Assembly: GCA_028875345.1 (NCBI GenBank)
Contig: JAPPEG010000364.1
Span: 1-41,874 of the forward strand
Origin: Gemmatimonadota bacterium
Lineage (GTDB): Bacteria > Latescibacterota > UBA2968 > UBA8231
Reading direction: 5' to 3'
DNA: 41,874 nucleotides
Shown here piece after piece: positions 18,292 to 41,874 of the stretch (positions within the stretch are counted from its first letter, which is position 1; every line of letters begins with the position of its first letter). The notes beneath the pieces were generated by a model, which was not told where the DNA came from, did no database searches, and saw nothing but the letters and a program-made list of their open reading frames with translations. The position numbers and the translations under genes were made by a program.

Positions 18292-18293
18292 AG

Positions 18294-19802: not shown

Positions 19803-19805
19803 GAA

Positions 19806-20816
19806 TCAGCGGGGCGGGCTGAGGTACTTGGTCTCCAACTCGCCCATAATCTGCGCGGTGATGGCCCTGACCTCGTCCTCGAAGGTATCGACGTTGTCCT
19901 TAGTCACCAGTACCGTACCCGAGTTGATGAAGTAGCGGTCGGGATTGGCCTGCCAGCCATCGAGCAGATAGCTCAACAGCGCGCACGTGATGTAGCCGTG
20001 GCCGTAGGGATTTTGCGAGACGGTCGCGTCAATGGCCCCCTGGCGGATCGCGTCGAGTACTACCGAGTCCGTGTCGATGCCGACGAAGTGGATGCGCTTG
20101 TTATCTGGGGTTTGGTTCCACTCCGACAGGATGGTCGCCGCGGCCACGGTCGGCGTGTACCCCGTACAAATCACGCCGTCGATCTCCTCAATCCGCGCCG
20201 AGAGTGCATCCTGGATTTTGGCCGTGCTGGTCTCAATCGACTCCATGCCGGCGATTTCCTGGATGATCTGGACCTCTGGGTATTTGGCTACCGCTGCCTC
20301 GACGCCTTCTTTGCGCAATATGGTGTTAGGATCTTCGACCAGTTCGAGCACGTTGAGGATGTTGCCCTTGCCGCCCATAAAGCCGATCAGCGCCTCGGTG
20401 GCCTCCATCGCCGCCTGTTTGACATCGGTCGCCACGCAAAAGGAAGCGGGCGTCGGCAGCGTCGTCGGCGCTCCATAGCTGACGACATAGGCTCCGTTTT
20501 GCACCAATTCCTCGTAAAGTCCGTTGGCGGCGCTGGCGTCGGCTGGGTAGAGCGAGAAGCCTTTATAGCCCTGGGCGGCTAGCGGCTCGACGTTGGCGTT
20601 TTCGTTGTCCTGAGTCCAGTTTTGGCCGATCTGGCGCTTGATCTTGATCCCGGTGTCGCGCTCATAGCCGATCACCCCTTTTTGCACCTCTTCGACATAG
20701 GGGTGGACCATCAGGGCGTACCAGACGATTTTCTTCTCCGTAGGCTCGTCGTCCGATTCGCCGGACCCGCCGCAGCCAGCGATGACGAGCGCGGCCCAAA
20801 TTAGTAACAGACGCAT
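19806..20816 (-). CDS. Sugar ABC transporter substrate-binding lipoprotein (Peripla_BP_4 type)
   Basis: 336 residues. The signal MRLLLIWAALVIAGC ends in a lipobox (IAGC), followed by an acidic linker. The mature protein has the two-lobe fold of ribose/galactose-type binding proteins (EVQKGVIGYERDTGIKI, LAAQGYKGFSLYPADASAA, HFVGIDTDSVVLDAIRQGAID, NPYGHGYITCALLSYLL). It captures a sugar in the periplasm for the downstream ATPase and permease. A good AAGGAGA lies six bases before the ATG. It is the first gene of the operon; the roughly 115-base leader to the next minus gene should hold the promoter, which I could not define. The ligand is unknown. Confidence 0.92.
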   Translation of the reverse strand: MRLLLIWAALVIAGCGGSGESDDEPTEKKIVWYALMVHPYVEEVQKGVIGYERDTGIKIKRQIGQNWTQDNENANVEPLAAQGYKGFSLYPADASAANGLYEELVQNGAYVVSYGAPTTLPTPASFCVATDVKQAAMEATEALIGFMGGKGNILNVLELVEDPNTILRKEGVEAAVAKYPEVQIIQEIAGMESIETSTAKIQDALSARIEEIDGVICTGYTPTVAAATILSEWNQTPDNKRIHFVGIDTDSVVLDAIRQGAIDATVSQNPYGHGYITCALLSYLLDGWQANPDRYFINSGTVLVTKDNVDTFEDEVRAITAQIMGELETKYLSPPR

Positions 20817-25486: not shown

Positions 25487-25594
25487 AATGTCCCCTTTTC
25501 TATCGCGTCTTATCGCGCCCTCAACTGACTGGCGGCCCCCAGCAGATATAGATATTTTGAGGCACAGACCACGAAGCTATAAGATACCAATAAA

Positions 25595-27280: not shown

Positions 27281-27319
27281 CCCTTGCCAGGAATTTTCCC
27301 GCCAATTTATTTCGAGCCT

Positions 27320-28123
27320 ATGTTCCGCGCCCTGCTTATCCTTTCCCTAACCCTGCCCGCCTGTAGCCGCGTCCCCGAGTCGCTGACAGTCGAACTAGCC
27401 CCCGGCGTGGCGATGGAGTTCGCCTACATTCCGCCCGGCACCTTCGCCATGGGCGCAGCCCCGGGCGAGGAGGGGCCACTCGACGACAGCGAAACACCCC
27501 AGCACCAAGTCGAACTGTCGCGCGGATTCTACCTCGCCAAATACGAGCTTACTCAGGCCCAGTGGCGCGCTGTCGTCGGCACCCAACCGTGGCGTCGGCG
27601 TCAGTACGTCAAAGAAGGAGCGCAACACCCGGCCACCTACATCTCGTGGATAGAAGCCGAACATTTCATCCAGCGGCTCAATAAAAAGGCCGGCAAAACG
27701 CTCTACCGCTTCCCCACTGAAGCCGAATGGGAATACACCTGCCGCGCCGGGACCACCACGCGCTGGTTCTCCGGCGACGATGAGCAAACACTGGTCGACT
27801 ATGCCTGGGTCAGCAGCAACTCCTGGGCCGTCGGCGAGAAATACCCCCACCCTGTCGGCCAAAAAGCACCCAACGCTTGGGGACTCTACGATATGCACGG
27901 CAATGTCTGGGAATGGGTCGCCGACTGGGAGGGGCCATACGATTCGGAGAAAAAAATAGATCCCCAAGGCCCGGCCACAGGAGAGCGCCGCGTCGGCCGC
28001 GGTGGCTCCTTTGGCACCTTGGGATTAGGCGGGCGTTCGGCCTCGCGCTTTTTCAGCCCGCCCGATGCCCGCAGTCCCGATGTAGGGGTCCGCATCGCCC
28101 GCGAAGTCACAACCGATCAATAG
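27320..28123 (+). CDS. Formylglycine-generating-enzyme-fold (SUMF1/FGE-sulfatase domain) lipoprotein
   Basis: 267 residues from ATG 27320; a TTG at 27284 in frame would only lengthen the signal. The signal MFRALLILSLTLPAC ends in a lipobox. The FGE-sulfatase domain covers nearly all the rest: EFAYIPPGTFAMGA, LAKYELTQAQWRAVV, YRFPTEAEWEYTCRAGT, GLYDMHGNVWEWVADW and RRVGRGGSFG. The catalytic Cys that normally precedes R-S-A after the RGGS strand is Gly here (GGRSASRF), so formylglycine formation is unlikely. Such proteins may instead be sugar- or ligand-binding, or other FGE-fold enzymes. It is cotranscribed with the upstream UnbV lipoprotein and overlaps the convergent cytochrome/VCBS gene by seven bases. 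Confidence 0.88.
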   Translation: MFRALLILSLTLPACSRVPESLTVELAPGVAMEFAYIPPGTFAMGAAPGEEGPLDDSETPQHQVELSRGFYLAKYELTQAQWRAVVGTQPWRRRQYVKEGAQHPATYISWIEAEHFIQRLNKKAGKTLYRFPTEAEWEYTCRAGTTTRWFSGDDEQTLVDYAWVSSNSWAVGEKYPHPVGQKAPNAWGLYDMHGNVWEWVADWEGPYDSEKKIDPQGPATGERRVGRGGSFGTLGLGGRSASRFFSPPDARSPDVGVRIAREVTTDQ

Positions 28124-29703
28124 CGTCGATTTTTGAGAATCAATATCGACGGCCCCTGCCGCCAACGCGCTTCTAGCTCAGCCGACACATTGGACCAACC
28201 CATGGCAAAGGAGCCGAGGACGATGTCCTCGTCGCCGTCGAGATCGACATCGCCCACATCCATCGTCAGCCAGCGGCCCGCCAGCACCTCGTCGAACGTC
28301 GCGGGCGTAAACTGCATGCCGCCCTCGTTGCGCAAGTACACGAAGGCTTCTGCGGGCGCATCAGCGTAATCGGCGAAAAAACCGATCGCAGCGATATCGA
28401 AATCCCCATCCCCGTCGAAGTCAGCAGCCTGTGCATTGTAGGCCCCGTTGAGCGGAAAGAAATAGGCCTCTGTGAAGCGATTGCGACCGTCGTTGAGATA
28501 GAGCCGGACCCCGTGGTACGGTTTGAGCAGCAGTGCGTAGTCGGCGTTGTCGCCGTTGGCCGTGAGTAGGTCGAGATCCCCATCCTCGTCAAAATCCACC
28601 AGACTCAGATGCGCCGCCCCATAGGAAGGCGGCCACTGCACCACATAGGACTCTGCAAAGGTGCCGTCGCCGCGATTGTAATAAATAAACACACCTTCGC
28701 GCGATTGCCCCATTAAGGCAATGATGTCCAAACGGCCGTCGCCGTTGAAGTCGCGCACGTAGTGACTGATCGCCCCAGGATACTGGTTGAGCCAGCGCTC
28801 CTCGTAGCCCCCGTCTTCTTGGGCAATGAAATAGGACAGATGTCCCAACAAGTTTCCGAACTCGGAGACGACAATCTCCTCCACCCCATCGCCGTCCAGA
28901 TCGGCAAACGACGTAGCAACTGGCCGCGACAAATCCCTCAGCACCCGTTTGCCGACCTGCAGAAAGGTATCACCCTCCTTAGCCACAGCCATCAACTGGC
29001 CTTGCGGATCGTCCGACGGAAACGGTGAGCCGATTGAGGTAACCCAGATAGTCCCTTCGCGCCAGTCGATATCGGTCGGAGTCAGGTTGAGCCTCAGTTT
29101 CTGCACGAGTTGACCCTGACCGTCGAGAATCGACACCGAGCGCTCGCGCGAGTCCCCCGCGTAAATTCGCCCCTCGTGGATCGTCACAAGCGTCGTAAAG
29201 GGACTTTCGACGCGATACTCTGGTATCAAGACATCAAATTGGTCTAAGTCGCGGCCGATCGCGGCCCGCACACCCTGGGGCAAGGGCTGTTCCGGCGCTG
29301 CCTGCAGATAGTATTCGACAATCGGTGCCCAAGCCTCCATCGGGATCAACGGCTCTTGAGGATAGATGCCCGGTTGCTCGTCCTCCCGCTGATGTTTTTT
29401 AGGCGGCAAGCCCGCCAGCTCCTGCGGCAAACCGAGGATTTTGGCCAACGTCGGCAGCACCCACTCCCGCAGCGTCGTCCGATCCAGCAACTCAGGCTCG
29501 GCGAAGACGTGGCAACTCTGGCAGTACAACTTGGCCAGCCGTCGTCCCTCGCTATCGGTGGAATCGGGCGATTGAAATTGCAGGGTGTGGATCAGTTCGA
29601 GATCGATGGCGGTAGATGGCGGTGCGGAATCTGTGGCCGGTTCTTGGCAGCCACATAGCACGAGGATCAGACAGACTATCCGCGTCAAAATCACGATCGC
29701 CAC
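28117..29703 (-). CDS. Cytochrome c/VCBS-repeat fusion lipoprotein
   Basis: 528 residues, GTG start at 29703 two bases after the stop of the preceding gene. The lipoprotein signal LTRIVCLILVLCGC ends in a lipobox. Residues about 45-140 form a small mono-haem domain with the haem-c motif CQSCH (LAKLYCQSCHVFAEPELLD) and a candidate distal Met in PLIPMEAWAPIVEYYL. A beta-propeller follows with at least five Asp-rich loops (DLDGDGVEEIV, DFNGDGRLDII, DFDEDGDLDLL, DFDGDGDFDIA, DVDLDGDEDIV). It is an envelope protein, possibly combining electron transfer with a binding propeller. It closes the long minus-strand array of secreted proteins; the end overlaps the FGE-fold gene tail-to-tail. Confidence 0.88.
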   Translation of the reverse strand: MAIVILTRIVCLILVLCGCQEPATDSAPPSTAIDLELIHTLQFQSPDSTDSEGRRLAKLYCQSCHVFAEPELLDRTTLREWVLPTLAKILGLPQELAGLPPKKHQREDEQPGIYPQEPLIPMEAWAPIVEYYLQAAPEQPLPQGVRAAIGRDLDQFDVLIPEYRVESPFTTLVTIHEGRIYAGDSRERSVSILDGQGQLVQKLRLNLTPTDIDWREGTIWVTSIGSPFPSDDPQGQLMAVAKEGDTFLQVGKRVLRDLSRPVATSFADLDGDGVEEIVVSEFGNLLGHLSYFIAQEDGGYEERWLNQYPGAISHYVRDFNGDGRLDIIALMGQSREGVFIYYNRGDGTFAESYVVQWPPSYGAAHLSLVDFDEDGDLDLLTANGDNADYALLLKPYHGVRLYLNDGRNRFTEAYFFPLNGAYNAQAADFDGDGDFDIAAIGFFADYADAPAEAFVYLRNEGGMQFTPATFDEVLAGRWLTMDVGDVDLDGDEDIVLGSFAMGWSNVSAELEARWRQGPSILILKNRRY

Positions 29704-29705
29704 CG

Positions 29706-32309
29706 TCAGTAGGCTACGGCAATAGTATGCAAGACTTCCCCGGCCCCGACGCGTGCTCCTTGGGTATCGGTATCCACCCGCAGACGCACCACATACACTC
29801 CCGGTGCGACCACCGCCCCCAACTCATCCCGGCCATCCCACCCAACTCCGTACGCCCCTGTACTCACCCCGCGCTGCTCGACCAACTGCCGCACCAGCCG
29901 ACCGCTCAAATCGTAGATCAGCACCTCCACCGGACTGTCGTCGCCTACCTTGATTACCTTGAAGTGAAACGACACTTGGTCGTTGACCCCATCCCCATTG
30001 GGGGTGAAGACCTCCGGTATCACCACATCCTCCAGCAACGATCGGCTCTGCACTGCGCCCCGCAAGGTCGTGGTATTGCTGAGTATCGCCCCTACTGCGT
30101 CGCCCGGATCAACCCGCTGCCAATCCCATTCCTCCGAGGTGCTGTTCTGCAGCGATGCCTGCAACACCGCTCCAGCCGAAAACAGTGCCGTAGTGAAGTC
30201 CAGCCGCAACATCTCGACCTCTGACTCCGGGCTGATAGGCGGAAAGGTCAAGCGCAGGCTGTCGCCAGCCGTCGCTACAACCTCGACATCGGCTATCGCC
30301 AGCCCGTCCATATCGCGGCCGGCCAGCACCTCGCCCGCACCGGCATACAGACCATCGAAGCCAAGCGTCATGTCCGCCGGTGCCACCAGCAGAAGCTCGT
30401 CAAAGCCGGGATCGCGGGGGGCGAAGTTCGGCCGCACGAAGAGCGAAAAGCGCTGCTCTTGCCCCAGCGTCTCTACCACCGCCGGTGCCACCTCTCCCGT
30501 CAGGCTCTGCGCCACCGGATGCGTGAAATTGAGCCGGATCGAACGCAAGGTCGCGCTCACTGAAGGAGCGTCCGACAACAGGGTTGCCCGGATCTCTAGG
30601 AACTCGCGCGGCGACGGCGAAGCAATCGGACTGCCATTGGGATCTTCGCCCGGCTGGCTCCAGTCGCTCCAATCCCCGCCTACTACTTCTTCGGCGATAA
30701 TATCCCCCTTGAATATCGAGAGCAGCTTATCGTACTGGTCTTTGCTCACTTCGGTACCGTTTTTTTTGAAATAGCGCAAGTTCTCGGCTAGCTCGTTGCC
30801 GGTGCGCGTCTGCACCAACACACTCGTGCCCGGCGGCACATCCGCGTCCCATTCGAGCGAGACCAAATTGCGGCTACCACCCAACCGCACCAGATCCGAA
30901 GTCAGACTTACCTCCGACATAAACCCTTCCCCGTAGAGCTGCAACTCGGACGGATCGGCCAGAATGGCCGCACCGCTATTGCCTACCCCGCGCACAATCT
31001 GATTCCACACGAAGCGAAAGAAACGCGCCCTTAGGGGGCTAAAGTTGTTGCCCATTACGCTCTGGGTGCCAATCGTGCTGGCACTGAGGACTTCTGCACC
31101 ACTCACTGCGGCCGCGGAAGTCCACTTGAGGCTGCCGTCTGCCTCGCGTTCGCCATTGGAAAAATCCAGTCTATAACCCTCAAAATTGCGCTGGCGCGCT
31201 CCCAAGGCCATGCGGAACGCGTCGATCCAGAACGAAGCTCCCATATCGAAAAACACCTCGCCCTCTGGTGACTTTAATTGCCCAGGGGAGAAGATGAAAA
31301 TCACCTCGCTGAAACTGAGCACATCACCGTCGAATAAACTCGCCAGCGCTAGCGATTGGGTAGAAGTAACCATGCCCCCGCGCTCGACCGTATTGATCAG
31401 GATCTCGTCGCCCTCGGCCCACACTTCCAACTCGGCTAGGCGCGGCCTTTCGCGCACGAAATAGCGCACCGGACCTTGCCGCGATGCTTCGAGCCGGTCA
31501 TAGACCTCCTTTTTAACCGCGGCCTCATTGCCATTCGGCAATAGCTTGTGGTAGAGAATCGCGCCCCGGTCTGCCTCTAACAGGGCTTCGTACTCGTCGC
31601 GACTGATCTCCCGCCCCTCGGCAAAGTCGCTACCGGTCACCAGCACCTGCACGAAGCGCAGGCCCATACCCGCAAACTCTTCTGCGTAATCCAGCTCGAT
31701 CTCAAAGAGCCGCTGTTGTTTGTTGGGCACCAAGGTGCGCGCCACGCGTCTGAACTCCGGCGTCTCGGAACGGCTGTTGCCCTTGGGTTGGCGGCCTTCC
31801 GAGACCAGCACATCAAACTGCAAGAAGGGGTCGCCCAATGCTTCATCGACAAACTTGAGCACGATCTTGCGGGCCATGACGAAGCGGCCCAGATCGACGA
31901 TGAACCACCACTGCGTCGCCAAGTCGATGCCTGGCTCAAGCGCGTCAGGTTCCCAATAGGTTTCCATATCACCGTCAAATAGGGCCAGTACACCCGGCGC
32001 GTTGGATCCAGCGCGGATTCCATCGCTGAGTTCGATATCGGCCGCGTCTTTTTTGATGTAATTGGGAGGATTCAGGCGCAAGAATTCGCGGGCATTGTCC
32101 ACGGCATTGATATTCTTGCGCAGCCGCCGTGGCCGAACTTCGCCGCCAGCCCCGATGTCTAGGGTGCCCGCTCCGAAAGACCAGTTTTGCCAGTGCTGCT
32201 GAGTATTGACCACGACTTGGTCAGCAGTGACGCGATGGCCCGCTCCTTGAGCGCTGGCGCACATCGCGCCCAACAACAAGGCGCAGGCAAAAGTCCAAAT
32301 GGTCTTCAT
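29706..32309 (-). CDS. Large secreted discoidin-like/FlgD-Ig protein (type A)
   Basis: 867 residues with a Sec signal (MKTIWTFACALLLGAMCASA). Two discoidin-like (F5/8 type C) modules are suggested by ALFDGDMETYW (109-119) and LASLFDGDVLSF (322-333), each preceding a beta-rich stretch ending in ELxxYGEG or similar. A distinctive helical insertion (ISRDEYEALLEADRG, 235-249) recurs near 516-536 (VSKDQYDKLLSIFKG). The C-terminus starts at residue 768 with FTPNGDGVND and is a FlgD-type Ig domain (YDLSGRLVRQLVEQ, GWDGRDELGAVVAPGVYVV), ending in IAVAY. This is the layout of cell-surface or secreted carbohydrate-binding proteins in FCB bacteria. Its homologue begins at 41150. Function is inferred as adhesion or glycan binding. 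Confidence 0.82.
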   Translation of the reverse strand: MKTIWTFACALLLGAMCASAQGAGHRVTADQVVVNTQQHWQNWSFGAGTLDIGAGGEVRPRRLRKNINAVDNAREFLRLNPPNYIKKDAADIELSDGIRAGSNAPGVLALFDGDMETYWEPDALEPGIDLATQWWFIVDLGRFVMARKIVLKFVDEALGDPFLQFDVLVSEGRQPKGNSRSETPEFRRVARTLVPNKQQRLFEIELDYAEEFAGMGLRFVQVLVTGSDFAEGREISRDEYEALLEADRGAILYHKLLPNGNEAAVKKEVYDRLEASRQGPVRYFVRERPRLAELEVWAEGDEILINTVERGGMVTSTQSLALASLFDGDVLSFSEVIFIFSPGQLKSPEGEVFFDMGASFWIDAFRMALGARQRNFEGYRLDFSNGEREADGSLKWTSAAAVSGAEVLSASTIGTQSVMGNNFSPLRARFFRFVWNQIVRGVGNSGAAILADPSELQLYGEGFMSEVSLTSDLVRLGGSRNLVSLEWDADVPPGTSVLVQTRTGNELAENLRYFKKNGTEVSKDQYDKLLSIFKGDIIAEEVVGGDWSDWSQPGEDPNGSPIASPSPREFLEIRATLLSDAPSVSATLRSIRLNFTHPVAQSLTGEVAPAVVETLGQEQRFSLFVRPNFAPRDPGFDELLLVAPADMTLGFDGLYAGAGEVLAGRDMDGLAIADVEVVATAGDSLRLTFPPISPESEVEMLRLDFTTALFSAGAVLQASLQNSTSEEWDWQRVDPGDAVGAILSNTTTLRGAVQSRSLLEDVVIPEVFTPNGDGVNDQVSFHFKVIKVGDDSPVEVLIYDLSGRLVRQLVEQRGVSTGAYGVGWDGRDELGAVVAPGVYVVRLRVDTDTQGARVGAGEVLHTIAVAY

Positions 32310-32323
32310 TGCACTCTTGTCCT

Positions 32324-34270
32324 TTAGTAAGCCAACGCGATGACGCGCTGGAGGATTTCTCCACCTCGGTCGCTAGTCACCTTTAGACGCAACAGGTAGC
32401 ACCCCGGCCCTACCCGCTCCCCACTCGCCAACACCCCATCCCACTCCAAGCGAAATCGGCCGCTCTGCGCTGTGCCGCGATACACCTCCCCCAAGCGACG
32501 GCTCGACAAATCGTACAGATCCAATGCGACTGGTACCGCTCCCAAGAGATTCAACAGCTCGTATTCGATCTGCAACTCGTCGTTGACTCCGTCGCCATTG
32601 GGCGTAAACACGGGCGAGGCTAGCCTGAGCGCGTTGGCCGCCTTGTGTTCCACTTCGACCAAACCTACGTTCAGCGTGTTGCTCTCGACTAGTGGATTGG
32701 CGTCGCCTGCGGTGAGCCGCTGATGCACCTCAAAGGGCCTTTCGCTGTCCGACACCCGGCCGGTGAACATCGTGCCGAACTTGAACACCTCCACCTGAAA
32801 ATCCACCTCAACCAGCTCTTCGGTGCGCTGCAAGTCCATGCGCGGGATGCGCAGCGCAAAGCCCTCCGCGTCTGAGCGCAGGACGTCAAAGCCGACCTCC
32901 ATCTCGCTAATGCGCACCGCGTCAACGCTTTTGACCTGCACGGGTGTCTCAACCTCAATGGTGTCAAATCCCAGATCGTCCTCTTCGAATTGAGGCAATA
33001 CCGCATAGGTAAAGGAAGTCACTTCGCCCACTTTAACCTGCGCTGGGAAGATCTCCGCCAGTACTTGGGTAGCCACCGGCGGATCCGAGACGCTGAATTG
33101 TACATAGTCCAACCGCCCGCCCGCCTCCTTGAGCGATTCAAAGTCGGCGCGTAGCTGCACGTAGCGCCTAGGCCGGTCCGCCTGCATCGCCCCCGTACTG
33201 TCCGCAAAATCGTACGCTTGGCTCCAAGCTTCCCACTGCTGAGTATCGGGCGTGATCCCGGCCCGCTCGCCCTTGTTGAGCTTGTTATAGGCCTTGCGCG
33301 TCAACACCCGGCCTTGGGTATCGAAGCGACTCTGCTCATCGCCGCGAAAGGTGAAGCGCCAGTAGATGCTGGGCGTCGGCGTGTCGCCGCTGCGCATAGT
33401 CAAGGCAACGCCGGCACCCGGCTCGACCACACCCGACCAACTCAGATCGCCCAGCGACACCGCTCGGCCTAGATCAATGACATTGCTTTGGTAGCCAGCA
33501 AAGGGGGCAAAACCCGCGCCGTAGAGTTCGAGTTCGGCCAGCTCCCAGATGCCCCGCGTATTCTCCGCTGCTCGGAAGAGTACCTTCTGTACAGGTTGCG
33601 CTGGCAACTCTAACTCAATGATAGGCTCGGTGTTTTCCCTGATGTCGTAGAGCACGTCAAAGGCGACGACAGACCCCCTGCCGAATCCCCCCACTCCAGC
33701 CTGTAGCTCTCGATGGGGATCTTTGAACGGATCGCCGTCACTGATGCCAATGGTAAAGCTCTCCACGAAGCGGTCGTGCAGATGTCTTTCGCGGGGGTAG
33801 AACTTGATTCGCTCGAGAAAAAACAGGCCGCCGAGGTCGAAAATCAGACTTTTGTGTTTGGGCCCATGCATCGCGAAGTGCCCATCGCCCAGATAGACCG
33901 TATTGGGATCCTCGTCCCAGATAAACCAGTCATCGACATCGGGACCACCCCAGCCAATCCAAGTCAGATAGAAAATATCCCCGAGGAAATCGGGCTGGGG
34001 CAACAGCGGCGTCAGGTTGACCGTCGGGTCGAGTTGGCGCGGTGCGATGTGATTGGGGGTTACTTCGATTAGGTCGGTCTGGCCATGCCGATCTTCAGCT
34101 ACGTCGGCCCACGCTAGTTGCACGAATTCCACCCCCTCAAGCGCCGCTAACTCTGGAGCCGGCAAATCACTACCCCCGAGCCGGTAGATCGTCAGCGCGT
34201 CGATAGGACCGACGACCAACAGCGAAAACCCGCACCATACAGCTAAGGAATCTCTGAGGCGTTGGTACAT
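32324..34270 (-). CDS. Secreted discoidin-like/FlgD-Ig protein (type B)
   Basis: 648 residues from ATG 34270, with GGGAG upstream and a Sec signal (LRDSLAVWCGFSLLVVGPIDA); the open frame extends to 34351 without support. The mature protein begins LTIYRLGGSDLPAPEL. A discoidin-like segment carries DEDPNTVYLGDGHF and FDLGGLFFLERIKFYPRE. It has the insertion motif LTRKAYNKLNKGERAGI followed by WEAWSQAYDF, the conserved strand RRYVQLRADF, then FTPNGDGVNDELQIEYELL and a FlgD-Ig domain ending in VIALAY. It aligns along nearly its whole length with the 653-residue protein at 39162-41123. It lies 14 bases upstream of the type A gene. Probably surface exposed; the ligand is unknown. Confidence 0.8.
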   Translation of the reverse strand: MYQRLRDSLAVWCGFSLLVVGPIDALTIYRLGGSDLPAPELAALEGVEFVQLAWADVAEDRHGQTDLIEVTPNHIAPRQLDPTVNLTPLLPQPDFLGDIFYLTWIGWGGPDVDDWFIWDEDPNTVYLGDGHFAMHGPKHKSLIFDLGGLFFLERIKFYPRERHLHDRFVESFTIGISDGDPFKDPHRELQAGVGGFGRGSVVAFDVLYDIRENTEPIIELELPAQPVQKVLFRAAENTRGIWELAELELYGAGFAPFAGYQSNVIDLGRAVSLGDLSWSGVVEPGAGVALTMRSGDTPTPSIYWRFTFRGDEQSRFDTQGRVLTRKAYNKLNKGERAGITPDTQQWEAWSQAYDFADSTGAMQADRPRRYVQLRADFESLKEAGGRLDYVQFSVSDPPVATQVLAEIFPAQVKVGEVTSFTYAVLPQFEEDDLGFDTIEVETPVQVKSVDAVRISEMEVGFDVLRSDAEGFALRIPRMDLQRTEELVEVDFQVEVFKFGTMFTGRVSDSERPFEVHQRLTAGDANPLVESNTLNVGLVEVEHKAANALRLASPVFTPNGDGVNDELQIEYELLNLLGAVPVALDLYDLSSRRLGEVYRGTAQSGRFRLEWDGVLASGERVGPGCYLLRLKVTSDRGGEILQRVIALAY

Positions 34271-34366
34271 GAATGGGTGCTCCCTATAAAAACCTTCCTG
34301 CGACGAAGAGCATATCTTGGCCCGATCGCGTTTGATCGCCGTGGTCACCAATGCCCGGCGACAGGC

Positions 34367-35524
34367 TCACCCCCAGAGCTGCTTCGTCGCTAGCTGTGCA
34401 CCGGCGGCTATGGCTTGGAACTTGGCCCACACCACGGTCGGATGGACTTCCGGGGTATAGGTAGCCTGGGTCGAAAAGCCGCAATCGGTCCCGGCGATCA
34501 CATTCTCTCGCCCCACGATGTTGGCGAAGCGGACGATGCGCTCGCAGATGAGTTCTGGGTGCTCGACGATATTGCTCGCGTGCGCGACCATCCCTGGAAT
34601 AATCAACTTGCCCTCCGGCAGTTTGACGTCCTCCCAAACGTGGTACTCGTGTTCGTGTCGTGGGTTGGCGGCCTCGAACGAATAGGCACCGGCGTTCACC
34701 TTGAGCATGATCCCCACGATGTCCTTGAGCTCCGCGTCGTGGATGCGCGGACCTTCGTTGATCCCGTAGCAAGTATGCAGCCGCACCTGCTCGGGAGGAA
34801 TACCGCGCAAGCTGTGGTTGAGCACCTCAACGGACAGTTCGATCTTCCGCAGGCGGTCGTCTAGGCTCAAGCTCCCGTCGCCGCGCACCACTGTCATCCA
34901 AGGATCGTCGATCTGCACGATAAAACCCGCATCGACGATCGCCTTATATTCCGTGCGCATGGCCTCGCCGACCGCCTGCAGATACTCCTCCTCAGTCGGA
35001 TAATACTCGTTTCCACCGACCCCACCCGGCGCCACCGCGGGCATAAAGACATCCACCTTGTCCACTCCCGCGACCGCGGCTTTGAGATTTTCAATGTCCT
35101 TGTTCAGGGCATCAATGCCCTTATAACTGATGGGGCCGATGCACGCGACGGGGTTTATTTCGGCGACGGCACCCCCGTGCATGGCCTTGCCAAAGTAGCG
35201 CTCGTAATACTCCGGGAAAGCGGCTACCTCCTGCGAAAATTCAGCGGAGTCGATCGCGCCCGGTCTCTCTTCATAACCAGCCAACCGCTCGCTCACGTAC
35301 GCCGAGAAACCGAGCTTACTCTGCTCGCCATCGGTGACAATGTCGATGCCGCTCTCGACCTGCTTGCTGACAACCTCGGCCACGGCGGCCGAAATTCGCC
35401 GAGCATAGACCTCCTCGGTGTAGGGTGCGCCGGAAACTTTGGCCTTCATCAGGTCGAGCAAGTCCACAGGACGCGCCAAGCTGCCAACGTGGGTAGTCAA
35501 GATGCGATCAGTACTGCGCTCCAT
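34367..35524 (-). CDS. Cobalamin-independent methionine synthase-like (MetE C-terminal family) protein
   Basis: 385 residues, about half the length of MetE, matching the stand-alone MetE C-terminal/UROD-like barrel family (YxjG-type and alkyl-transfer enzymes). It opens with ILTTHVGSLARP, typical of the family. VTDGEQSK (residues 64-71) and VQIDDPWM follow. Probable zinc ligands are His/Cys in VRLHTCYG, the Glu in SFEAANPRHEHE and the Cys in VIAGTDCGFST near the C-terminus. Family role: zinc-thiolate methyl or alkyl transfer; the true substrate of stand-alone members is often unknown. AAGGAGA lies seven bases before the ATG. It is the last gene of the catabolic group 38996-34367. Confidence 0.85.
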   Translation of the reverse strand: MERSTDRILTTHVGSLARPVDLLDLMKAKVSGAPYTEEVYARRISAAVAEVVSKQVESGIDIVTDGEQSKLGFSAYVSERLAGYEERPGAIDSAEFSQEVAAFPEYYERYFGKAMHGGAVAEINPVACIGPISYKGIDALNKDIENLKAAVAGVDKVDVFMPAVAPGGVGGNEYYPTEEEYLQAVGEAMRTEYKAIVDAGFIVQIDDPWMTVVRGDGSLSLDDRLRKIELSVEVLNHSLRGIPPEQVRLHTCYGINEGPRIHDAELKDIVGIMLKVNAGAYSFEAANPRHEHEYHVWEDVKLPEGKLIIPGMVAHASNIVEHPELICERIVRFANIVGRENVIAGTDCGFSTQATYTPEVHPTVVWAKFQAIAAGAQLATKQLWG

Positions 35525-35557
35525 AGTTGCGTCTCCTTGCTCCCCGTATAACGTATA

Positions 35558-36805
35558 TCAGTCCAGCCCGAGCGCTGCGTCGATCTCTTGTTGGTAGGCC
35601 CGCACTTGGCCCGAAAGGATCTCGTCCATAGTCACGGCCCGGCCGGCGAGGATCGACTCGTAGGCCCCGTATATCGCCGCCACTGCCGTCATGCCCAGAT
35701 GTCCATCGACCTCGGGTTTGGTGCCTTTGAGAACCGCCTCGCCGAAGTCGTGCATCTCAATGGCCATGTGCTTGGCATCGATCGGCGGGAAGTCCAGCTC
35801 GTAGGTCACCACCTTCGCGCCGAAAAGCCGCTCGGTAATTTCGCTCATCTGAAAATCGGGCAATAACGGCAAAATTTCCGCGCCCTCAAACTCTTGGCCC
35901 TCAAGACGCAGGACCACCGGCCGACCATTGCGGTCCCCAGGCGCATACAACGCCCCCAAGCGGCCGTGCACGCTGCGCTCAAAACCGGTGCTGCCGCGAC
36001 CGCCGGCCGCGTAGGTAAACTGCACCATGGCCCCGGACTTCATCTTGTACATCGCGCAGACCGAATCCTCGCCGGTAGCTTCAATCGAATCGGGGAAGGT
36101 CTTGAGCCGCTCGACATAGGACTCGAGTTGGAGACCGGAATCATCGGGCTTATAGCGCACCGGCTCGATAATCCAACCGGTGCCGTAGATCTGGTCGAAG
36201 GCACCCATGTAGTACTGTACGATATCGGTAAAATGCACCGCCATATCTAGACCGATCGCTCCTTTGTCCTTGAGATGCCGCCACGGGGTGATGACCATCT
36301 TATTGTTGCCGCCTAGGCTGTTGTGGATCATCAGGTAGGGGTCGCCCAAAATCCCGTGGTCGAGGATCGCGCGCGCCAATCTATTGGGTGGGTCGCGCCG
36401 CAAATTCTCGGCCGTGGCCAGCACCACGCGACTCTTTTCGGCCGCCGCGATCATCGCCGCGCAGGCGCGAATGGTGATGCCCAGCGGCTTTTCGCACAAG
36501 ACATGCTTGCCGGCCTCCAGCGCCGGTACCGCCACTTGGTGATGGACCGCGGGATCAGTGGCCACGTCCACCGCCGCAATGTCGGGGTGCGACACAGCCT
36601 CGTCCAGATCGGTGAAGACCAAGGGCGTGCGACCGAAGAGGCGCTCTACTTCCCGCCGGCCCAGATCCGCGTTCTTGGGGTTGAGGTCGCATACGGCCAT
36701 CAGTTCGATATTGCCGATGCCGCTGTTCTCCAGTTCTTTGTAGGCGAGGATATGGCGATGGCCCATACCGCCGCAGCCGATCAAGCAAAGTGGAATCTTT
36801 TTCAA
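35558..36805 (-). CDS. Gfo/Idh/MocA family oxidoreductase
   Basis: 415 residues, NAD(P)-dependent sugar or inositol dehydrogenase family. The N-terminal Rossmann motif is LIGCGGMGHRHI (residues 8-19), followed by ELMAVCDLNP. The family hallmark EKPLGITIRA lies near residue 108, and GAIGLDMAVHFTDIVQYYMG holds the usual catalytic Asp/His region near 188-204. The C-terminal domain extends to about 400. It oxidises or reduces a sugar, deoxysugar or cyclitol in the cytoplasm. The start is TTG at 36805 with AAGGAG six bases upstream. Neighbouring isomerase/epimerase and SDR genes support a sugar or cyclitol breakdown route. Confidence 0.92.
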   Translation of the reverse strand: MKKIPLCLIGCGGMGHRHILAYKELENSGIGNIELMAVCDLNPKNADLGRREVERLFGRTPLVFTDLDEAVSHPDIAAVDVATDPAVHHQVAVPALEAGKHVLCEKPLGITIRACAAMIAAAEKSRVVLATAENLRRDPPNRLARAILDHGILGDPYLMIHNSLGGNNKMVITPWRHLKDKGAIGLDMAVHFTDIVQYYMGAFDQIYGTGWIIEPVRYKPDDSGLQLESYVERLKTFPDSIEATGEDSVCAMYKMKSGAMVQFTYAAGGRGSTGFERSVHGRLGALYAPGDRNGRPVVLRLEGQEFEGAEILPLLPDFQMSEITERLFGAKVVTYELDFPPIDAKHMAIEMHDFGEAVLKGTKPEVDGHLGMTAVAAIYGAYESILAGRAVTMDEILSGQVRAYQQEIDAALGLD

Positions 36806-36826
36806 TGTCTGCTCCTTGTATAACGC

Positions 36827-37609
36827 TCAGTAACCCACCGAGCGGAGGAATTCCCGATTGGCCCGACACGATTCATCCGCGTCGGTGTCTGCATAGCTGG
36901 ACAGCTCGCCCATTACCCAGCCCTGATAGCCGATCTCCTCAAGCGCCGCGCGAATCGCGGCGAAGTCCAGCCCCACCGTGCCCTGCCCCATCACGCAGAA
37001 CTTGCCCTGGGTCCAGTCCTTCATGTGCACGTAGCCGATGCGCTCGCGGTATTTGAAGATCTGGGCGACCGCGTCTTCCTGCATAAAGGCCGCCACCGAC
37101 ACGTCCATGCAGATCTGCAGCCGCTCGGCGTATGCGAGAAGCTTGTCCTGCTCCTCTTCGCTTTCGACCGTGCAGCGCGGATGCGCGTGGTAGGTCACCT
37201 TCACCCCCAGAGGCTCGGCGTAATCAATGAGAGTTTCCGCCTGCTCAGCCAAGCGTTTAAACTCGTCGTCGTTGGGCTGGCGTAGCGCCACGCGATTGCC
37301 GCCGAGAAAGCAGTAATTGGGGCAACCCAACTCAGCCGCGTATTCGATGATGCGCCGCTGCCGAGCGAGCACCTGTTCGGCGTCGGGTGCCAGCGACACA
37401 CTGCCGAACAGGCACACCGGCGGCAACCCGTGCTGATCGAGCAAGCCGCGCAGCCTTCGGGGCGTGCCCAGCCAGTCCATCGAAACGCTGATGAACTCCA
37501 CCCCCTCCCAGCCGGCGTCGGCGATGGTGCCAAACACTTTGTCCAAATCCGGCGTGGGGCCCCAAGTGATCGTGGAATACCCTAGATGAAACGACCGCTC
37601 TGCACTCAT
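36827..37609 (-). CDS. Sugar phosphate isomerase/epimerase (xylose isomerase-like TIM barrel)
   Basis: 260 residues, AP endonuclease 2/xylose isomerase-like barrel. Recognisable elements: HLGYSTITWGP at the N-terminus, AGWEGVEFISVS (near 33-44), LGCPNYCFLGGN (near 93-104), VTYHAHPRCTVESEEE (metal-ligand His region near 158-173), LQICMDVSVAAF, and IGYVHMKDWTQGKF with the later His/Asp ligands. IolE/IolI-type and hydroxypyruvate-isomerase-type proteins share this fold. It acts in the cytoplasm on a keto-sugar or inosose. GGAGG lies five bases before the ATG. It lies between the SnoaL-like and Gfo/Idh/MocA genes in one operon. Confidence 0.9.
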   Translation of the reverse strand: MSAERSFHLGYSTITWGPTPDLDKVFGTIADAGWEGVEFISVSMDWLGTPRRLRGLLDQHGLPPVCLFGSVSLAPDAEQVLARQRRIIEYAAELGCPNYCFLGGNRVALRQPNDDEFKRLAEQAETLIDYAEPLGVKVTYHAHPRCTVESEEEQDKLLAYAERLQICMDVSVAAFMQEDAVAQIFKYRERIGYVHMKDWTQGKFCVMGQGTVGLDFAAIRAALEEIGYQGWVMGELSSYADTDADESCRANREFLRSVGY

Positions 37610-37642
37610 TTTGACCTCCGTTCACTTCTTGGTTCAGCCTTC

Positions 37643-38026
37643 TCAGGTCAGACACGCGGATACGTGCAAATGGGAAACCTGCCAGCGCTGGTCCTGTTTG
37701 AGCCAGACGATGGTTTCGCGCCAGGTACCTTCCTCGACGCTGTCGCCGATGGTCCAAGTGCCGACCAGATAGCCCGTACTGACCGCGACATCGCCGTGTA
37801 CGGTGGCCTGAAGATCTCGCCATTCCACCTGCGCCTGGACACGGCCTGCGGCCATGCCGGCCCGCAGCGCTTTGGCGTCGAAAGCCGCCAGACGACTGCC
37901 GTCGGGTCCAAAGGTAGTGCGTTGGGGGTGGATATACGGCAGAAAGGCGTCTATATCGCCGGCGCAATACGCGGCAGTGGCGATTTTCGCCGCCGCGATT
38001 ACCGCTGCTGCTTCGTCATGGGCCAT
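37643..38026 (-). CDS. SnoaL/DUF4440-like (NTF2-fold) protein
   Basis: 127 residues from ATG 38026, one base after the SDR stop and with GAGGAG seven bases upstream; the frame continues to 38101 but those codons are inside the SDR gene. The pattern is that of an NTF2-like cone: a long N-terminal helix (IAAAKIATAAYCAGDIDAFL), YIHPQRTTFGPDG, QAQVEWRDLQATVHGDVAVS and ETIVWLKQDQRWQVSHLHVS. Such proteins serve as small-molecule isomerases, cyclases or binding modules. Its job in this catabolic operon is not clear. Confidence 0.82.
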   Translation of the reverse strand: MAHDEAAAVIAAAKIATAAYCAGDIDAFLPYIHPQRTTFGPDGSRLAAFDAKALRAGMAAGRVQAQVEWRDLQATVHGDVAVSTGYLVGTWTIGDSVEEGTWRETIVWLKQDQRWQVSHLHVSACLT

Positions 38027-38027
38027 A

Positions 38028-38996
38028 TCAATCTCCTCGTTTGCGCTCCTGTCGTCGCCGCATGCCCTCCTGCAGGAACAGTTCGCGGTTGGGAAAGCCA
38101 TTGATCAACGTGAATCCCCCGTCCACCGCGATCAACTGACCGGTCATATAGGGGATCTGGGTGAAGGCGAAGGCAGCACCGGCGATATCTTCGGGCTGGC
38201 CGATGCGCGGCAGCGCCTGCGAGCCTCCCTCGGCCATCAAACCGTAGGTTTCGGCCACGGTATATTGCTGGTCGGTCTCCGGATCGACAATGCCAGAAGG
38301 ACGCGACGTCAGCGGTGTCTCCACCACCCCTGGACGCAAGGCGTTGACGGTAATATTGTGCTGCCCCGCATCAAAGGCGGCCCCTAGGACCACGTGGTTG
38401 AGCCCGGCCTTGCTCACCCCGTAGGGGATGCGCGTGCTGTCGGGTGCCACATCCGATACCGTAGCGATAAACAGAAAGCTGCGGTGCGGGACTTCTTGCC
38501 CGGCCCGCCGCTCGTTTTCGGCCTGCTCGATCATGCGTTTGAGCGCGCGCTGACACAGGCGGTAGGCCCCTTTGAGATTGACGCTGAGGACCCGGTCCAA
38601 CTCCTGTTCAAGATGATCGACCGGCGTCTCGGTGAAGCGGTAGCGCGCAATCTGCCCGTCTGCGCCGCGCACGTAGTTGGTCACGCCGCTGTTGCTGACC
38701 ACGGTGTCGAGGCGGCCGAAATGCGCGTAGGCCCGATCCACTAGGTCGAAAGGGGCTTCGGGCTGGCTCAAATCAGCACCCAAGCTCAGCGCCTCCACCC
38801 CGTGCTCCGTCCGCAGTTTGTTAGCCACCGCGGCCGCCCGCTCCTCGCCGGAGCTTTTGTGCGCACGGGGGTCGGAGGGATCGCTGCCGGAATTGTAGTG
38901 TACCACCACGTCGTAGCCGTTGGCAGCGAAGGCGGCCACAACAGCCGTGCCAATTCCACTGCTCGAACCAGAGACCAGACATACGGGCCTGCTCAT
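38028..38996 (-). CDS. Short-chain dehydrogenase/reductase (SDR)
   Basis: 322 residues, a classical SDR somewhat longer than the usual 250 because of inserts (about residues 36-65 and 215-245). The cofactor motif is CLVSGSSSGIGTAVV (T-G-x-x-x-G-x-G type with Ser replacing Thr, residues 6-20), then VVSNSGVTNYV in place of NNAG. Catalytic Ser is probably in FIATVSDVAP, with Tyr and Lys in YGVSKAGLNHV. RPGVVETPLTSRP and GQLIAVDGGFTLING complete the fold. It oxidises or reduces a hydroxyl/keto group using NAD(P). GGGAG lies seven bases before the ATG at 38996. It is the first gene of the catabolic group, 165 bases after an upstream surface-protein gene. Confidence 0.9.
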   Translation of the reverse strand: MSRPVCLVSGSSSGIGTAVVAAFAANGYDVVVHYNSGSDPSDPRAHKSSGEERAAAVANKLRTEHGVEALSLGADLSQPEAPFDLVDRAYAHFGRLDTVVSNSGVTNYVRGADGQIARYRFTETPVDHLEQELDRVLSVNLKGAYRLCQRALKRMIEQAENERRAGQEVPHRSFLFIATVSDVAPDSTRIPYGVSKAGLNHVVLGAAFDAGQHNITVNALRPGVVETPLTSRPSGIVDPETDQQYTVAETYGLMAEGGSQALPRIGQPEDIAGAAFAFTQIPYMTGQLIAVDGGFTLINGFPNRELFLQEGMRRRQERKRGD

Positions 38997-39161
38997 AGAT
39001 AGACTCCCTGATTAATAGTCAACTTCGTTTGCTCTTGGACGATCTTATAGGCGTCCACGCGTCGCCGTCGCTTGGCCCTGCCAACAGCCGCAATGCCCCA
39101 ATCGACGATCTCCCCCATCCTTCCGGCACCGGCGCGATCGCAAATACAGCACAAGGCTTTT

Positions 39162-41123
39162 TTAATAAGCCATGCCGACAACTCGTTGTGCCCGATCAAT
39201 CCCCTCGTCCGTCTCTACGGTGAGCTGCAGCAGATACGTTCCCGGCGGCGCGAGTTGCCCATCGACATCGCGCCCGTCCCACGCCGCGGTGAACCACCCG
39301 CTGACCTGCTTACCGCCGTCGATCTGGCTGATCTCGCGCCCCGCCAAATCGAATATCTGGATCGCCACGGGTGCAGCCTCTACGTTCAGCAAATCGCACT
39401 CGATCACGACCACATCGTTAATTCCGTCGCCGTTGGGGGTAAACACGCCGGCCAGCACGCGCAGTCCCTTGATGCTCTTTTGGGCCAAATCTAGAATATC
39501 TACGCTCAAGCGATCACTATCTATGAGCGGGTCCGCATCACCGGCTGTCAACGCCTGCCGCACCTCATGTGGTTTCTCGCTGTCGAAAATCCGCCCGGCA
39601 AAAAGCGTCCCAAACTGGAAGACCTCGGCGCGAAAATCTACCTCGATCCGCTCGCCGGTTCGCGTCGCGTCGATCCGGGGAATCCCCAATTCAAAGCCCC
39701 GCTCGTCCAGCCGCCGGATCTCAAAACCCACCTCCTCGCCGCTGATCCGCACCGCATCCACCCCGCCGGGCAGGCTCGGAGTATCGATCTCAATCGAATC
39801 AAAGCCCAAATCTCGGGGACTAAACACTGGGGTCAACACATAGGTAAACGCCGCAGGCTCGCCCGCTCTCACCGCGCCCGGCGTGATTTCCGCTAGGGCT
39901 TGGGTCGCAATTGGCGGGTCCGATACCGCAAACTGCACGTAGTCGAGTTGACTTCCTTGGTCGCGGACCGAGTAGAAGTCGGCTCTGAACTGTACGTAGC
40001 GACGCGGTTTGTTCGCCTGTATATCTCCCACCCCAGCGCTGAAGTCGTAGGCCGGACTCCACGAGTCCCAGTTGCGGGTATCATAGGTAATCCCAGCCTT
40101 CTCTCCCTTGTTGAGTTTGTCGTAACTCCGCCGGGTGAGGGGATTTCCTTGCTGGTCGAAGAGTGACCTCTCGTCGCCCCTAAACGTGAAGCGCCAGTAG
40201 TTGTTCGGTTCGGCGCTGTCGCCACTGCGCGTCCGCAATTCGACCGCGGTCTCTGGATCCTGCCGTCCCGACCAAGTTACTGGACCCAGTGCAACTGCCT
40301 CGCCGAGGTCGATGATGTTCGAGCGGTAGGTGGCCTCGTTGGCGAAGCCAAATCCGTATATCTCGAACTCGGCTAGCTCCCAGATCCCTCTTGAGTTTTC
40401 TGGGGCATCAAGCAGTAGGCGCTGAACCGGCTCGGAGGGCATCGCCAGTTCCATCACTCCGCTCGAGTTTTCCTTGATGTCATAGGCGAGGTCGAAGTCG
40501 AAAAAAAAGCCTCGATGCGTGATCGCGTGATCGCGGGTGCCGTCCTTGAGGGGGTCGCCATCGCTGGTGCCGACTCTGAATCGCTGGACAAAGCGCTCGT
40601 TGACAAACTTTTCGCGGGGGAAGAAGCGAATGCGCTGAAGGTTGAATAGGCCGCCTAAGTCGAAGATCCAGACCTTGGTATAAATCCATCGTCCCTTGCC
40701 CCAACTCTCATCGAGGGAGCGTCCACCAAAGTAAATAGATCCCCACGGCCAGTGGCCATCGCCCAGATAGACCGTTTCGGGATCGCCATCGAAGATGAAG
40801 CGGTCGTCGTCCTCTAAGTTCTCGGTCCAGCCAGTATGCGAGTGCATGACGAACACAGTGCCGCCGTCCAATTCGTAGATCTGCGGCGCGATGTTGACGG
40901 TGGGGTCTAGACGCTGGGGACGGATGAAGTCGGCTTCTACTTCGACCAACTTGATCTGGCCATCGCGGGCTTCGTCGGCATCGGCCCAAGCCAACGACAC
41001 GAACTCGTAGGGTGCGTCCAGTTCGGGCGGTGGCAGACTCTGGCCACCGATCCGATAAATCGTCAACGCCGACACTTGGCTCCAGAAGAAACCGAGCGTC
41101 AGCAGAACCAGCGACACCCGCAT
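39162..41123 (-). CDS. Secreted discoidin-like/FlgD-Ig protein (type B paralogue)
   Basis: 653 residues with a Sec signal (MRVSLVLLTLGFFWSQVSA); the mature N-terminus LTIYRIGGQSLPPPEL is nearly that of the type B protein at 32324-34270. Shared features in the same order: FIFDGDPETVYLGDGHW, FDLGGLFNLQRIRFFPRE, ENSRGIWELAEFEIYGFGF, the insertion LTRRSYDKLNKGEKAGI with WDSWSPAYDF, RRYVQFRADF, LAGVFTPNGDGINDVVVIE and a FlgD-Ig end (IFDLAGREISQID, GWFTAAWDGRDVDGQLAPPGTYLLQL) closing in VVGMAY. GGAGGG lies before the ATG. It is encoded 26 bases after a type A gene. Probably a surface or secreted binding protein. Confidence 0.82.
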   Translation of the reverse strand: MRVSLVLLTLGFFWSQVSALTIYRIGGQSLPPPELDAPYEFVSLAWADADEARDGQIKLVEVEADFIRPQRLDPTVNIAPQIYELDGGTVFVMHSHTGWTENLEDDDRFIFDGDPETVYLGDGHWPWGSIYFGGRSLDESWGKGRWIYTKVWIFDLGGLFNLQRIRFFPREKFVNERFVQRFRVGTSDGDPLKDGTRDHAITHRGFFFDFDLAYDIKENSSGVMELAMPSEPVQRLLLDAPENSRGIWELAEFEIYGFGFANEATYRSNIIDLGEAVALGPVTWSGRQDPETAVELRTRSGDSAEPNNYWRFTFRGDERSLFDQQGNPLTRRSYDKLNKGEKAGITYDTRNWDSWSPAYDFSAGVGDIQANKPRRYVQFRADFYSVRDQGSQLDYVQFAVSDPPIATQALAEITPGAVRAGEPAAFTYVLTPVFSPRDLGFDSIEIDTPSLPGGVDAVRISGEEVGFEIRRLDERGFELGIPRIDATRTGERIEVDFRAEVFQFGTLFAGRIFDSEKPHEVRQALTAGDADPLIDSDRLSVDILDLAQKSIKGLRVLAGVFTPNGDGINDVVVIECDLLNVEAAPVAIQIFDLAGREISQIDGGKQVSGWFTAAWDGRDVDGQLAPPGTYLLQLTVETDEGIDRAQRVVGMAY

Positions 41124-41149
41124 AGTATTCCCTCCGCTGGGGAAAAGTG

Positions 41150-41874
41150 CTAGTAGGCAACAGCGATGGTGCGCAGTACTTCAGCGCGTCCAATGCGGGC
41201 ACCCTTGGTATCCGTATCGACTCGCACGCGCGCCAGATAGATTCCCGGGGGCACCACCGCCCCCTGCTCATCCCGACCGTCCCACTCCATCCCGTAGAGT
41301 CCCGTGCTCGCCGGACGCTGCTCGACTAAGCGCCGCACTCGTCGCCCTTGCACGTCGTGGATCAACACCTCCACCGGGCTACCATCACCCACCTTGACCA
41401 CTTGGAAATGAAACCCCATCTCGTCGTTGACCCCATCGCCGTTGGGCGTAACCACGCGCGGCTCCACTGCCACCGCCTGTACCAAGGCACCCTCCTGCAC
41501 CGCCCCCACCAGCGTCGTCGTATTGCTGGCAATGGCTTCCATGGCCTCACCCGGATCCACCCGCTGCCAGCCGCCCTCCCCCTCTGCAGTGTGCTGTAAC
41601 GATGCCTGCAATACCGCTCCCGTCGAAAACAAGGCCGTCGAAAAATCCAGCCGCACCACCTCAACCCCCGAAGAGGGATTTATCTCCGAAAACGCTACCT
41701 GCAAACTATCGCCAGCCGTGGGCACAACCTCTGCTCCGTCCAACGCCCAATCGGTGCCTACGTCAGCAGCCAGTGACGCCGCCGGACCGCCATATACCCC
41801 CTCAAAAGCCAAACGCATATCTGACGGGGCGACTACTAACAACTGATCAAACCCCGGATCGCCTGCGGCAAACT
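41150..41874 (-). CDS. Secreted FlgD-Ig protein (type A paralogue), 5' partial
   Basis: The frame is open to the right edge of the window, so only about the last 241 residues are visible; a TTG at 41842 is internal because the preceding codons (FAAGDPGFDQ) continue the alignment. The sequence parallels the C-terminal quarter of the 867-residue type A protein: LLVVAPSDMRLAFEGVYGG, VVRLDFSTALFSTGAVLQAS, WQRVDPGEAMEAIASNTTTL, then VVTPNGDGVNDEMGFHFQVV, IHDVQGRRVRRLVEQRPAST, GRDEQGAVVPPGIYLARV, ending in TIAVAY. It is the first visible gene of the minus-strand array, 26 bases upstream of a type B gene. Confidence 0.82.
   Translation of the reverse strand, partial: FAAGDPGFDQLLVVAPSDMRLAFEGVYGGPAASLAADVGTDWALDGAEVVPTAGDSLQVAFSEINPSSGVEVVRLDFSTALFSTGAVLQASLQHTAEGEGGWQRVDPGEAMEAIASNTTTLVGAVQEGALVQAVAVEPRVVTPNGDGVNDEMGFHFQVVKVGDGSPVEVLIHDVQGRRVRRLVEQRPASTGLYGMEWDGRDEQGAVVPPGIYLARVRVDTDTKGARIGRAEVLRTIAVAY

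Follow-up and report, generated by a model that had tools for sequence, protein, structure and literature searches.

Contig JAPPEG010000364.1 carries genes for large surface proteins on both sides of a run of genes for catabolic enzymes, which raises the question of whether the two belong to one system. The stretch analysed, here called the window, is the entire contig (G000:C374, 41,874 bp) of a Latescibacterota-type metagenome-assembled genome (MAG) of 5.03 Mb in 404 contigs, with a completeness of 87% and a contamination of 6.7%. In transcription order the ten genes concerned encode a partial type A surface protein (A2), a type B surface protein (B2), a short-chain dehydrogenase/reductase (SDR), a SnoaL-like protein, a sugar isomerase/epimerase-like protein (Iso), a Gfo/Idh/MocA oxidoreductase (Gfo), a MetE-like enzyme, a second type B protein (B1), a second type A protein (A1) and a VCBS/cytochrome c lipoprotein. 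An earlier interpretation, the sequence-only reading, described these genes as lying on the minus strand with short gaps and in this order, which the open reading frame (ORF) list and a Pfam scan bear out, and took A, B and the enzymes to be a single locus for one substrate. A different reading is preferred here, with a probability of about two in three. A and B would be part of a lineage-specific carbohydrate-binding surface complex, probably exported by a type IX system and seated on an outer-membrane barrel, and one copy of the genes for this complex would have acquired a portable catabolic cassette.

The portion of the array upstream of the window is known from relatives and includes two large barrel-like genes, designated c1. 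In genome G049, in which the whole array is on a single contig, c2 on the opposite strand is followed by B', c1, c1, c3, c4, B, B, A, A, A, B, SDR, SnoaL (over which an antisense ORF was called), Iso, Gfo, MetE, B, A and the lipoprotein gene. The order in G048 is the same from B' onward, apart from an antisense ORF that the script placed over c4, and that in G043 is the same from the first B onward. Contig C403 of the source genome holds the upstream part and breaks within a copy of A, in the tandem region where C374 also ends. The sequence-only reading had remarked on A-B before the enzymes and B-A after them. The order is as described, although it is not a mirrored design, since the alternation arises because the array runs B-B-A-A-A-B-enzymes-B-A.

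The paralogues are well diverged, as had been noted, with 54% identity between B1 and B2 and 64% between A1 and A2 over 239 aa. In trees, B1 clusters with a B of the upstream array, B2 is isolated on a long branch, A1 falls outside the tandem A copies, and A2 clusters with the third A copy of complete arrays. A recent duplication of the A/B sets was rejected from the positions of B1, B2 and A1.

The genes for A, B and the barrel-like c1 recur together as a conserved cluster, which c4, c8 and c2 often join. The c1 profile matches 39 of 64 genomes of the phylum and the A profile 35 (E ≤ 1e-30, with at most 13 and 14 candidates, respectively, scored per genome). All 35 A-positive genomes have c1, 25 have neither, and four, from family f7, have weak c1 matches only. 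Families f2-f4 and f10 (24 genomes) have no c1 or A at this threshold, though more distant families have both, which suggests loss. Outside the phylum, c1 matches were found in only 6 of 386 relatives, for each of which at most two candidates were scored, and all of these are weak, partial and within profile positions 484-846. Each of 20 c1 loci, selected by the author among the c1 matches in five families, carries A and/or B (19 with A, 19 with B), and in none of them does a called ORF best match the Gfo, isomerase, MetE, SDR or SnoaL protein of the window. Among 69 B loci, c1 is present in 42, c4 in 35, c2 in 21, and sulfatase (c10) and enolase-family (c6) genes in 9 each; MetE is present in four, each of which is the orthologous locus of the window or a fragment of it. 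The B-locus records are labelled Latescibacterota, Latescibacteria, Gemmatimonadetes, Gemmatimonas, Handelsmanbacteria, Aminicenantes or uncultured, with phylum membership confirmed for some. The simplest modules, c4-c8-B-A-c1 or c8-B-A-c1, are in families with small genomes (L220, L231, L236).

The source genome contains many copies. At least 162 places match B2 and at least 180 match A1, from scans in which 150 of 192 candidates were scored for B2 and 150 of 201 for A1. Across the 58 fetched stretches and the window, phmmer matched 125 ORFs on 56 contigs to A1 or B2 (E ≤ 1e-5), a census that does not extend to every contig with a weak A/B match. These ORFs total 256 kb of 5.0 Mb, some matching by the tail alone. 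Of them, 104 reach 100 bits or more; these come from 50 stretches including the window, with 48 nearer to A and 56 nearer to B, and a same-strand B-like neighbour is present for 23 of the 48 A-like ORFs. This genome has 35 c1 ORFs, of which 31 are 750 aa or longer, and at least 13 c1 matches were obtained in each of 19 among the 25 genomes of its family. The surface genes of the window are thus one copy of a many-copy outer-membrane module that is typical of the phylum and hardly found outside the Latescibacterota. A solo A-like type of 762-787 aa, without B or c1, was also seen (L077-L081, L084, L087, L096), and some of these stretches hold sulfatase, enolase, Gfo or PhyH genes.

The core protein c1 is a predicted outer-membrane beta-barrel of about 900 residues. 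An alignment of 22 members has no Pfam family beyond one stray weak match in one member, no member matches the Plug domain, and the c1 profile has no meaningful PDB sequence match. The AlphaFold2 model has long beta-strands at a predicted local distance difference test (pLDDT) score of 66.7, and the PDB entries listed as matching it are various outer-membrane proteins, with TM-scores of 0.09-0.37. The best of these include LptD and 6r2q_B (TMt 0.37), a chain of an Mtr complex and presumably MtrB. As the window array ends in a lipoprotein with a single CXXCH, c1 could be another kind of conduit, of the Mtr electron-transfer type or an LptD-like exporter, with A and B as accessories; this is highly improbable, given that no Pfam family of either kind was found in the 22 members, that the c1 profile has no PDB sequence match of note, and that no multihaem cytochrome was noticed in the arrays, for which no dedicated search was made. 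The top fold matches are the surface-layer (S-layer) deinoxanthin-binding complex and SlpA. Together with the tens of copies, their tandem duplication and the discoidin-like domains, this would suit a structural coat, adhesion system or surface lattice for host-matrix attachment or of S-layer type, with no role in nutrient uptake. Several related MAGs are presumably linked to sponges. Nevertheless, arrays are also found in records named for groundwater, Lake Baikal and deep-lake samples, which makes a sponge host unnecessary, and TM-scores to SlpA are low (0.17-0.27) and support 'outer-membrane barrel' only. A purely structural role is therefore somewhat unlikely. Residues of about 540 to 660 in the c1 at L125:4161-7106 form a conserved insert rich in Asp and Asn, which is modelled with low confidence.

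Among the companions of c1, c2 is a parvulin peptidyl-prolyl isomerase (PPIase), c3 is a loose cluster linked by TPR repeats, and c8 is small and has the look of a lipoprotein. The c4 proteins are weakly CBM9-like at most, with one of 14 members matching CBM9_1 (E 0.024) and one matching DUF7133, and the c4 profile matched no PDB chain.

A and B are homologous in their C-terminal halves (about residues 450-867 of A and 250-653 of B). They had been described as extracellular discoidin/FlgD-Ig binding proteins, and they do look like exported multidomain surface proteins: signal peptides are recognisable by eye, the tails resemble CHU_C and FlgD_ig, and the AlphaFold2 model of A1 (pLDDT 84.2) matches discoidin and CBM32 structures (2qqi, 3cqo, 7jnd) as well as PorU and C5a-peptidase structures. 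Whole-chain TM-scores are low, therefore this is a likeness of domains rather than membership of a family. The likeness to discoidin/CBM32 proteins is one of fold only, with F5_F8_type_C reaching 21.7 bits against a cut-off of 28.2. In common with known cargo of the type IX secretion system (T9SS), A and B end in CHU_C/FlgD_ig-like domains, the CHU_C match being above the Pfam cut-off in B2, at it in A1 and below it in B1 and A2. The translocon component SprA is encoded in this genome, SprA_N being above cut-off in all four genomes searched. Unlike known cargo, A and B fall below the NCBIfam T9SS sorting-domain cut-offs, with A1 at 22.8 against 35 and 17 against 23, so that export by this route is probable rather than established.

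The module also differs from known nutrient-uptake loci. The absence of a SusC/D pair and of a glycoside hydrolase, noted in the sequence-only reading, holds for the ten window genes, to which the Pfam scan was confined: there is no Plug match, no SusD match (A and B match only CHU_C, FlgD_ig and, weakly, F5_F8_type_C) and no glycan-degrading enzyme. It does not take in the missing upstream part, with its two barrel-like genes. A polysaccharide utilization locus (PUL) of the SusC/D type was rejected for want of a Plug, a SusD and a glycoside hydrolase. The likeness to the SusC/SusD PULs of Bacteroidota is in a barrel gene beside probable surface carbohydrate binders, in many paralogous copies and with some catabolic genes nearby; the difference is that 0 of 22 c1 have a Plug, A and B have no SusD match, and a parvulin gene often adjoins. 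The source genome has 21 Plug matches (20 above cut-off), one of them on a contig with a called A/B ORF (C257). No description of a c1-A-B module was found in the literature searched, which included parts of PMC12993501 and PMC4454575. It is tempting to extend the preferred reading and to see c1-A-B as an undescribed, Plug-less outer-membrane machine of the Latescibacterota for glycan capture or uptake. It would do the work of SusC/D with unrelated barrels and type IX-exported discoidin proteins, be diversified into tens of copies per genome with its own parvulin, and be able to take up varied catabolic cassettes at array 3' ends, the window being one case. In this full form the proposal is rather doubtful and is put forward tentatively.

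The genes enriched near A and B in the source genome are those of the module. Regions within 5 kb of A/B were compared with 378 kb of other DNA of the same genome, from 40 contigs picked by number, using profiles built from the A/B stretches, which favours those stretches. There are 30 c1 genes near A/B and none in the control (8.27 vs 0 per 100 kb), and the corresponding numbers are 17 and 1 for PPIase (4.69 vs 0.26), 14 and 1 for c4 (3.86 vs 0.26), 7 and 0 for c8 (1.93 vs 0) and 10 and 0 for VCBS genes. Neither Gfo (3 vs 4 genes, 0.83 vs 1.06 per 100 kb) nor PhyH (6 vs 9, 1.65 vs 2.38) is enriched within this distance. With an independent Pfam model, 4 of the 87 Gfo genes in the genome are within 5 kb of an A/B ORF of the fetched stretches, where 8.1 are expected; within 2 kb there is 1 against 4.0 expected, and within 10 kb there are 10 against 12.4. 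The claim of one substrate-specific locus is not sustained by these neighbourhoods, nor by those of relatives, in which A and B adjoin c1, PPIase, c4 and c8, mostly without enzymes.

The five enzymes do look like a cytoplasmic sugar-type module from Pfam and NCBIfam matches, as had been proposed. The isomerase and Gfo are distantly related to IolE and inositol dehydrogenases, as in myo-inositol gene sets, yet all equivalog scores are far below cut-off (80.8 bits for the isomerase against TIGR04379, IolE, where 290 is required) and the cassette adds a MetE-like gene. The best PDB sequence match of Gfo is 6a3f, 'Putative dehydrogenase'. The MetE-like protein scores 50.9 bits to Meth_synt_2 (cut-off 21) and has weak PDB matches to methionine synthases; with the NCBIfam equivalogs far below cut-off, its assignment is to the family only.

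A MetE-like orthologue (E ≤ 1e-40) is present in 8 of the 64 phylum genomes. The cassette is within the array in five close genomes: in one piece in G043, G048 and G049, over two contigs in the source genome (G000), and as fragments in G044. Among the 11 genomes of the genus, B1 and B2 orthologues of more than 90% identity are found in exactly these five, so the enzymes were gained or lost as one unit together with B1, B2 and probably A1. B2 orthologues of 95-98% identity are in VXZF01000529, VXML01000030, OX638377.1 and JAJEIO010000020 (labelled Gemmatimonadetes, Latescibacteria or Latescibacterota). A search of related genomes for conserved co-occurrence of A and B genes with these enzymes had been suggested; outside the five genomes, cassette genes were seen on stretches with no A/B. 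G051 has Gfo-MetE-isomerase on an 11 kb contig without A/B. In the 20 of 21.3 kb seen of G053, MetE occurs with no A/B; the sole A-like score, of 28 bits, belongs to an M6 peptidase with a FlgD_ig tail. In G041, isomerase-Gfo-MetE-SDR stands behind what looks like a sugar ABC importer, with a Pfam-matched substrate-binding protein and two ABC-permease-like ORFs, and there is no A/B on the visible side. Within the fetched stretches of the source genome, a homologue of the Iso, MetE or SDR of the window (linked at E 1e-12) is in the window only; other isomerase- and SDR-like genes do occur.

Conversely, arrays are found without the enzymes. G046, of the same genus and lacking a MetE-like orthologue, has c1, c1, c3, c4, B, B, A, A, A, B followed directly by the lipoprotein homologue. 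With about 50% identity to B1 and to B2 alike, its final B marks this as an array of the same plan and not a near-identical empty site. By eye, positions 17332-20816 of the window encode a sugar-type ABC importer (permease, ATPase and substrate-binding protein). G047 and G050 have a shorter array, c1, c1, c3, c4, B, B(B), A, near this importer and without enzymes. In G047 the substrate-binding and ATPase genes directly follow the array and most remaining window genes are syntenic, and in G050 three other ORFs lie between array and importer.

Several observations weigh against the preferred reading. Close to A/B, enolase-family genes (2.48 vs 0.79 per 100 kb) and sulfatase genes (1.10 vs 0.53) are denser than in the control, although the genes are few (9 vs 3 and 4 vs 2), and over the whole fetched A/B stretches there are 12 Gfo genes against 4 (2.01 vs 1.06), which mildly favours the pairing of surface proteins with enzymes. 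In another A/B array, a sulfatase gene (c10) lies downstream of the B-A pair in six of six loci (L129-L133, L135), with an enolase-superfamily gene (c6) next in four of them. This is a second case of catabolic genes at the 3' end of an array, and some functional recruitment may have occurred. The five close genomes with the cassette in the array all keep the arrangement, weak evidence at a B2 identity of 95-98%. The cassette of G041 stops at the contig end, so A/B may adjoin its far side. The confidence of the c1 model is modest, and below 50 in the N-terminal part, a TonB Plug gene lies about 6 kb from an A-like ORF on C257, and type IX export rests on one component and on tails near or below the Pfam cut-offs.

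A single substrate-specific locus, in which an extracellular compound is captured by A and B and broken down in the cell by the five enzymes, draws on the conserved arrangement, the sulfatase arrays and the Gfo and enolase densities just given, and on the common strand, with no minus-strand terminator-like site found in the B2-SDR gap. It is improbable in view of the enzyme-free array of G046, the cassette genes without A/B in G051 and G053, the deficit of Gfo genes within 5 kb of A/B, and the restriction of homologues of this Iso, MetE or SDR to the window among the fetched stretches. The enzymes appear to have been inserted late into one copy of the array, and not to be a partner of A and B. 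The cassette may be co-transcribed with the array, which does not imply that it shares a substrate with A and B.

Under the preferred reading of a barrel-based surface complex with an acquired cassette, A and B would cross the outer membrane, probably via the type IX system as their tails and the encoded SprA suggest, and would bind sugars through their discoidin-like domains while sitting on or near c1. The parvulin may help to fold the exported proteins. SDR-SnoaL-Iso-Gfo-MetE would be a distinct cytoplasmic module for the catabolism of a substrate resembling a sugar or polyol, perhaps methylated. In a single clade within one genus it would have entered the 3' part of one array, along with the additional B1 and probably A1. 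The main result is the barrel-A-B module itself, which occupies a sizeable share of the genome around a core protein without a Pfam family and is a concrete, testable candidate for how uncultured Latescibacterota grip glycans or a host. The case also cautions against assuming that enzymes encoded amid surface genes act on the same substrate as the surface proteins.

Table 1. The ten genes of the window in transcription order, with positions in the window and domain matches
Product	Position	Strand	Domain matches
A2, type A surface protein, C-terminal 240 aa only	41150..41872	-	FlgD_ig 34.7 bits, above cut-off; CHU_C 25, below cut-off
B2, type B surface protein, 653 aa	39162..41123	-	FlgD_ig 40.2 and CHU_C 36.7 bits, both above cut-off
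SDR-family oxidoreductase	38028..38996	-	adh_short_C2 1.4e-30
SnoaL/DUF4440-like small protein	37643..38026	-	DUF4440 5.7e-13; SnoaL_3 1.1e-10
Sugar isomerase/epimerase-like TIM barrel, distantly IolE-related	36827..37609	-	AP_endonuc_2 9.2e-31
Gfo/Idh/MocA oxidoreductase	35558..36805	-	GFO_IDH_MocA 4.5e-21
MetE-C-terminal-like enzyme (cobalamin-independent methionine-synthase family)	34367..35524	-	Meth_synt_2 1.8e-13
B1, type B surface protein	32324..34270 (ORF opens 34351)	-	CHU_C 21 and FlgD_ig 17.6 bits, both below cut-off
A1, type A surface protein, 867 aa	29706..32309	-	CHU_C 27.1 and FlgD_ig 27.0 bits, at cut-offs
Lipoprotein, one CXXCH motif and FG-GAP/VCBS repeats	28117..29703	-	FG-GAP_3 1.7e-31

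A2 is truncated at its 5' end because contig C374 ends there. Gaps between successive genes are 26 nt (A2-B2), 165 (B2-SDR), about 1 (SDR-SnoaL, taking the internal ATG at about 38026 as the start), 33 (SnoaL-Iso), 21 (Iso-Gfo), 33 (Gfo-MetE), 96 (MetE-B1, taking ATG 34270 as the start), 14 (B1-A1) and 2 (A1-lipoprotein). B1 likely begins at this ATG, which precedes a signal peptide, and not at TTG 34351, and for SnoaL the start at about 38026 is likelier than the longest-ORF start at 38101. Genes were called as the longest ORFs by a script, which sometimes placed antisense ORFs over real genes, as with SnoaL (in the window and in L119/L120), c4 (L206), and MetE and SDR (L199). A promoter scan was uninformative, with one site against 4.5 expected. 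The CQSCH motif and lipobox of the lipoprotein were recognised by eye in the translation. Its gene is one of three for FG-GAP/VCBS-repeat proteins of one cluster at positions 22527-29703, near a gene for a formylglycine-generating-enzyme-like protein.

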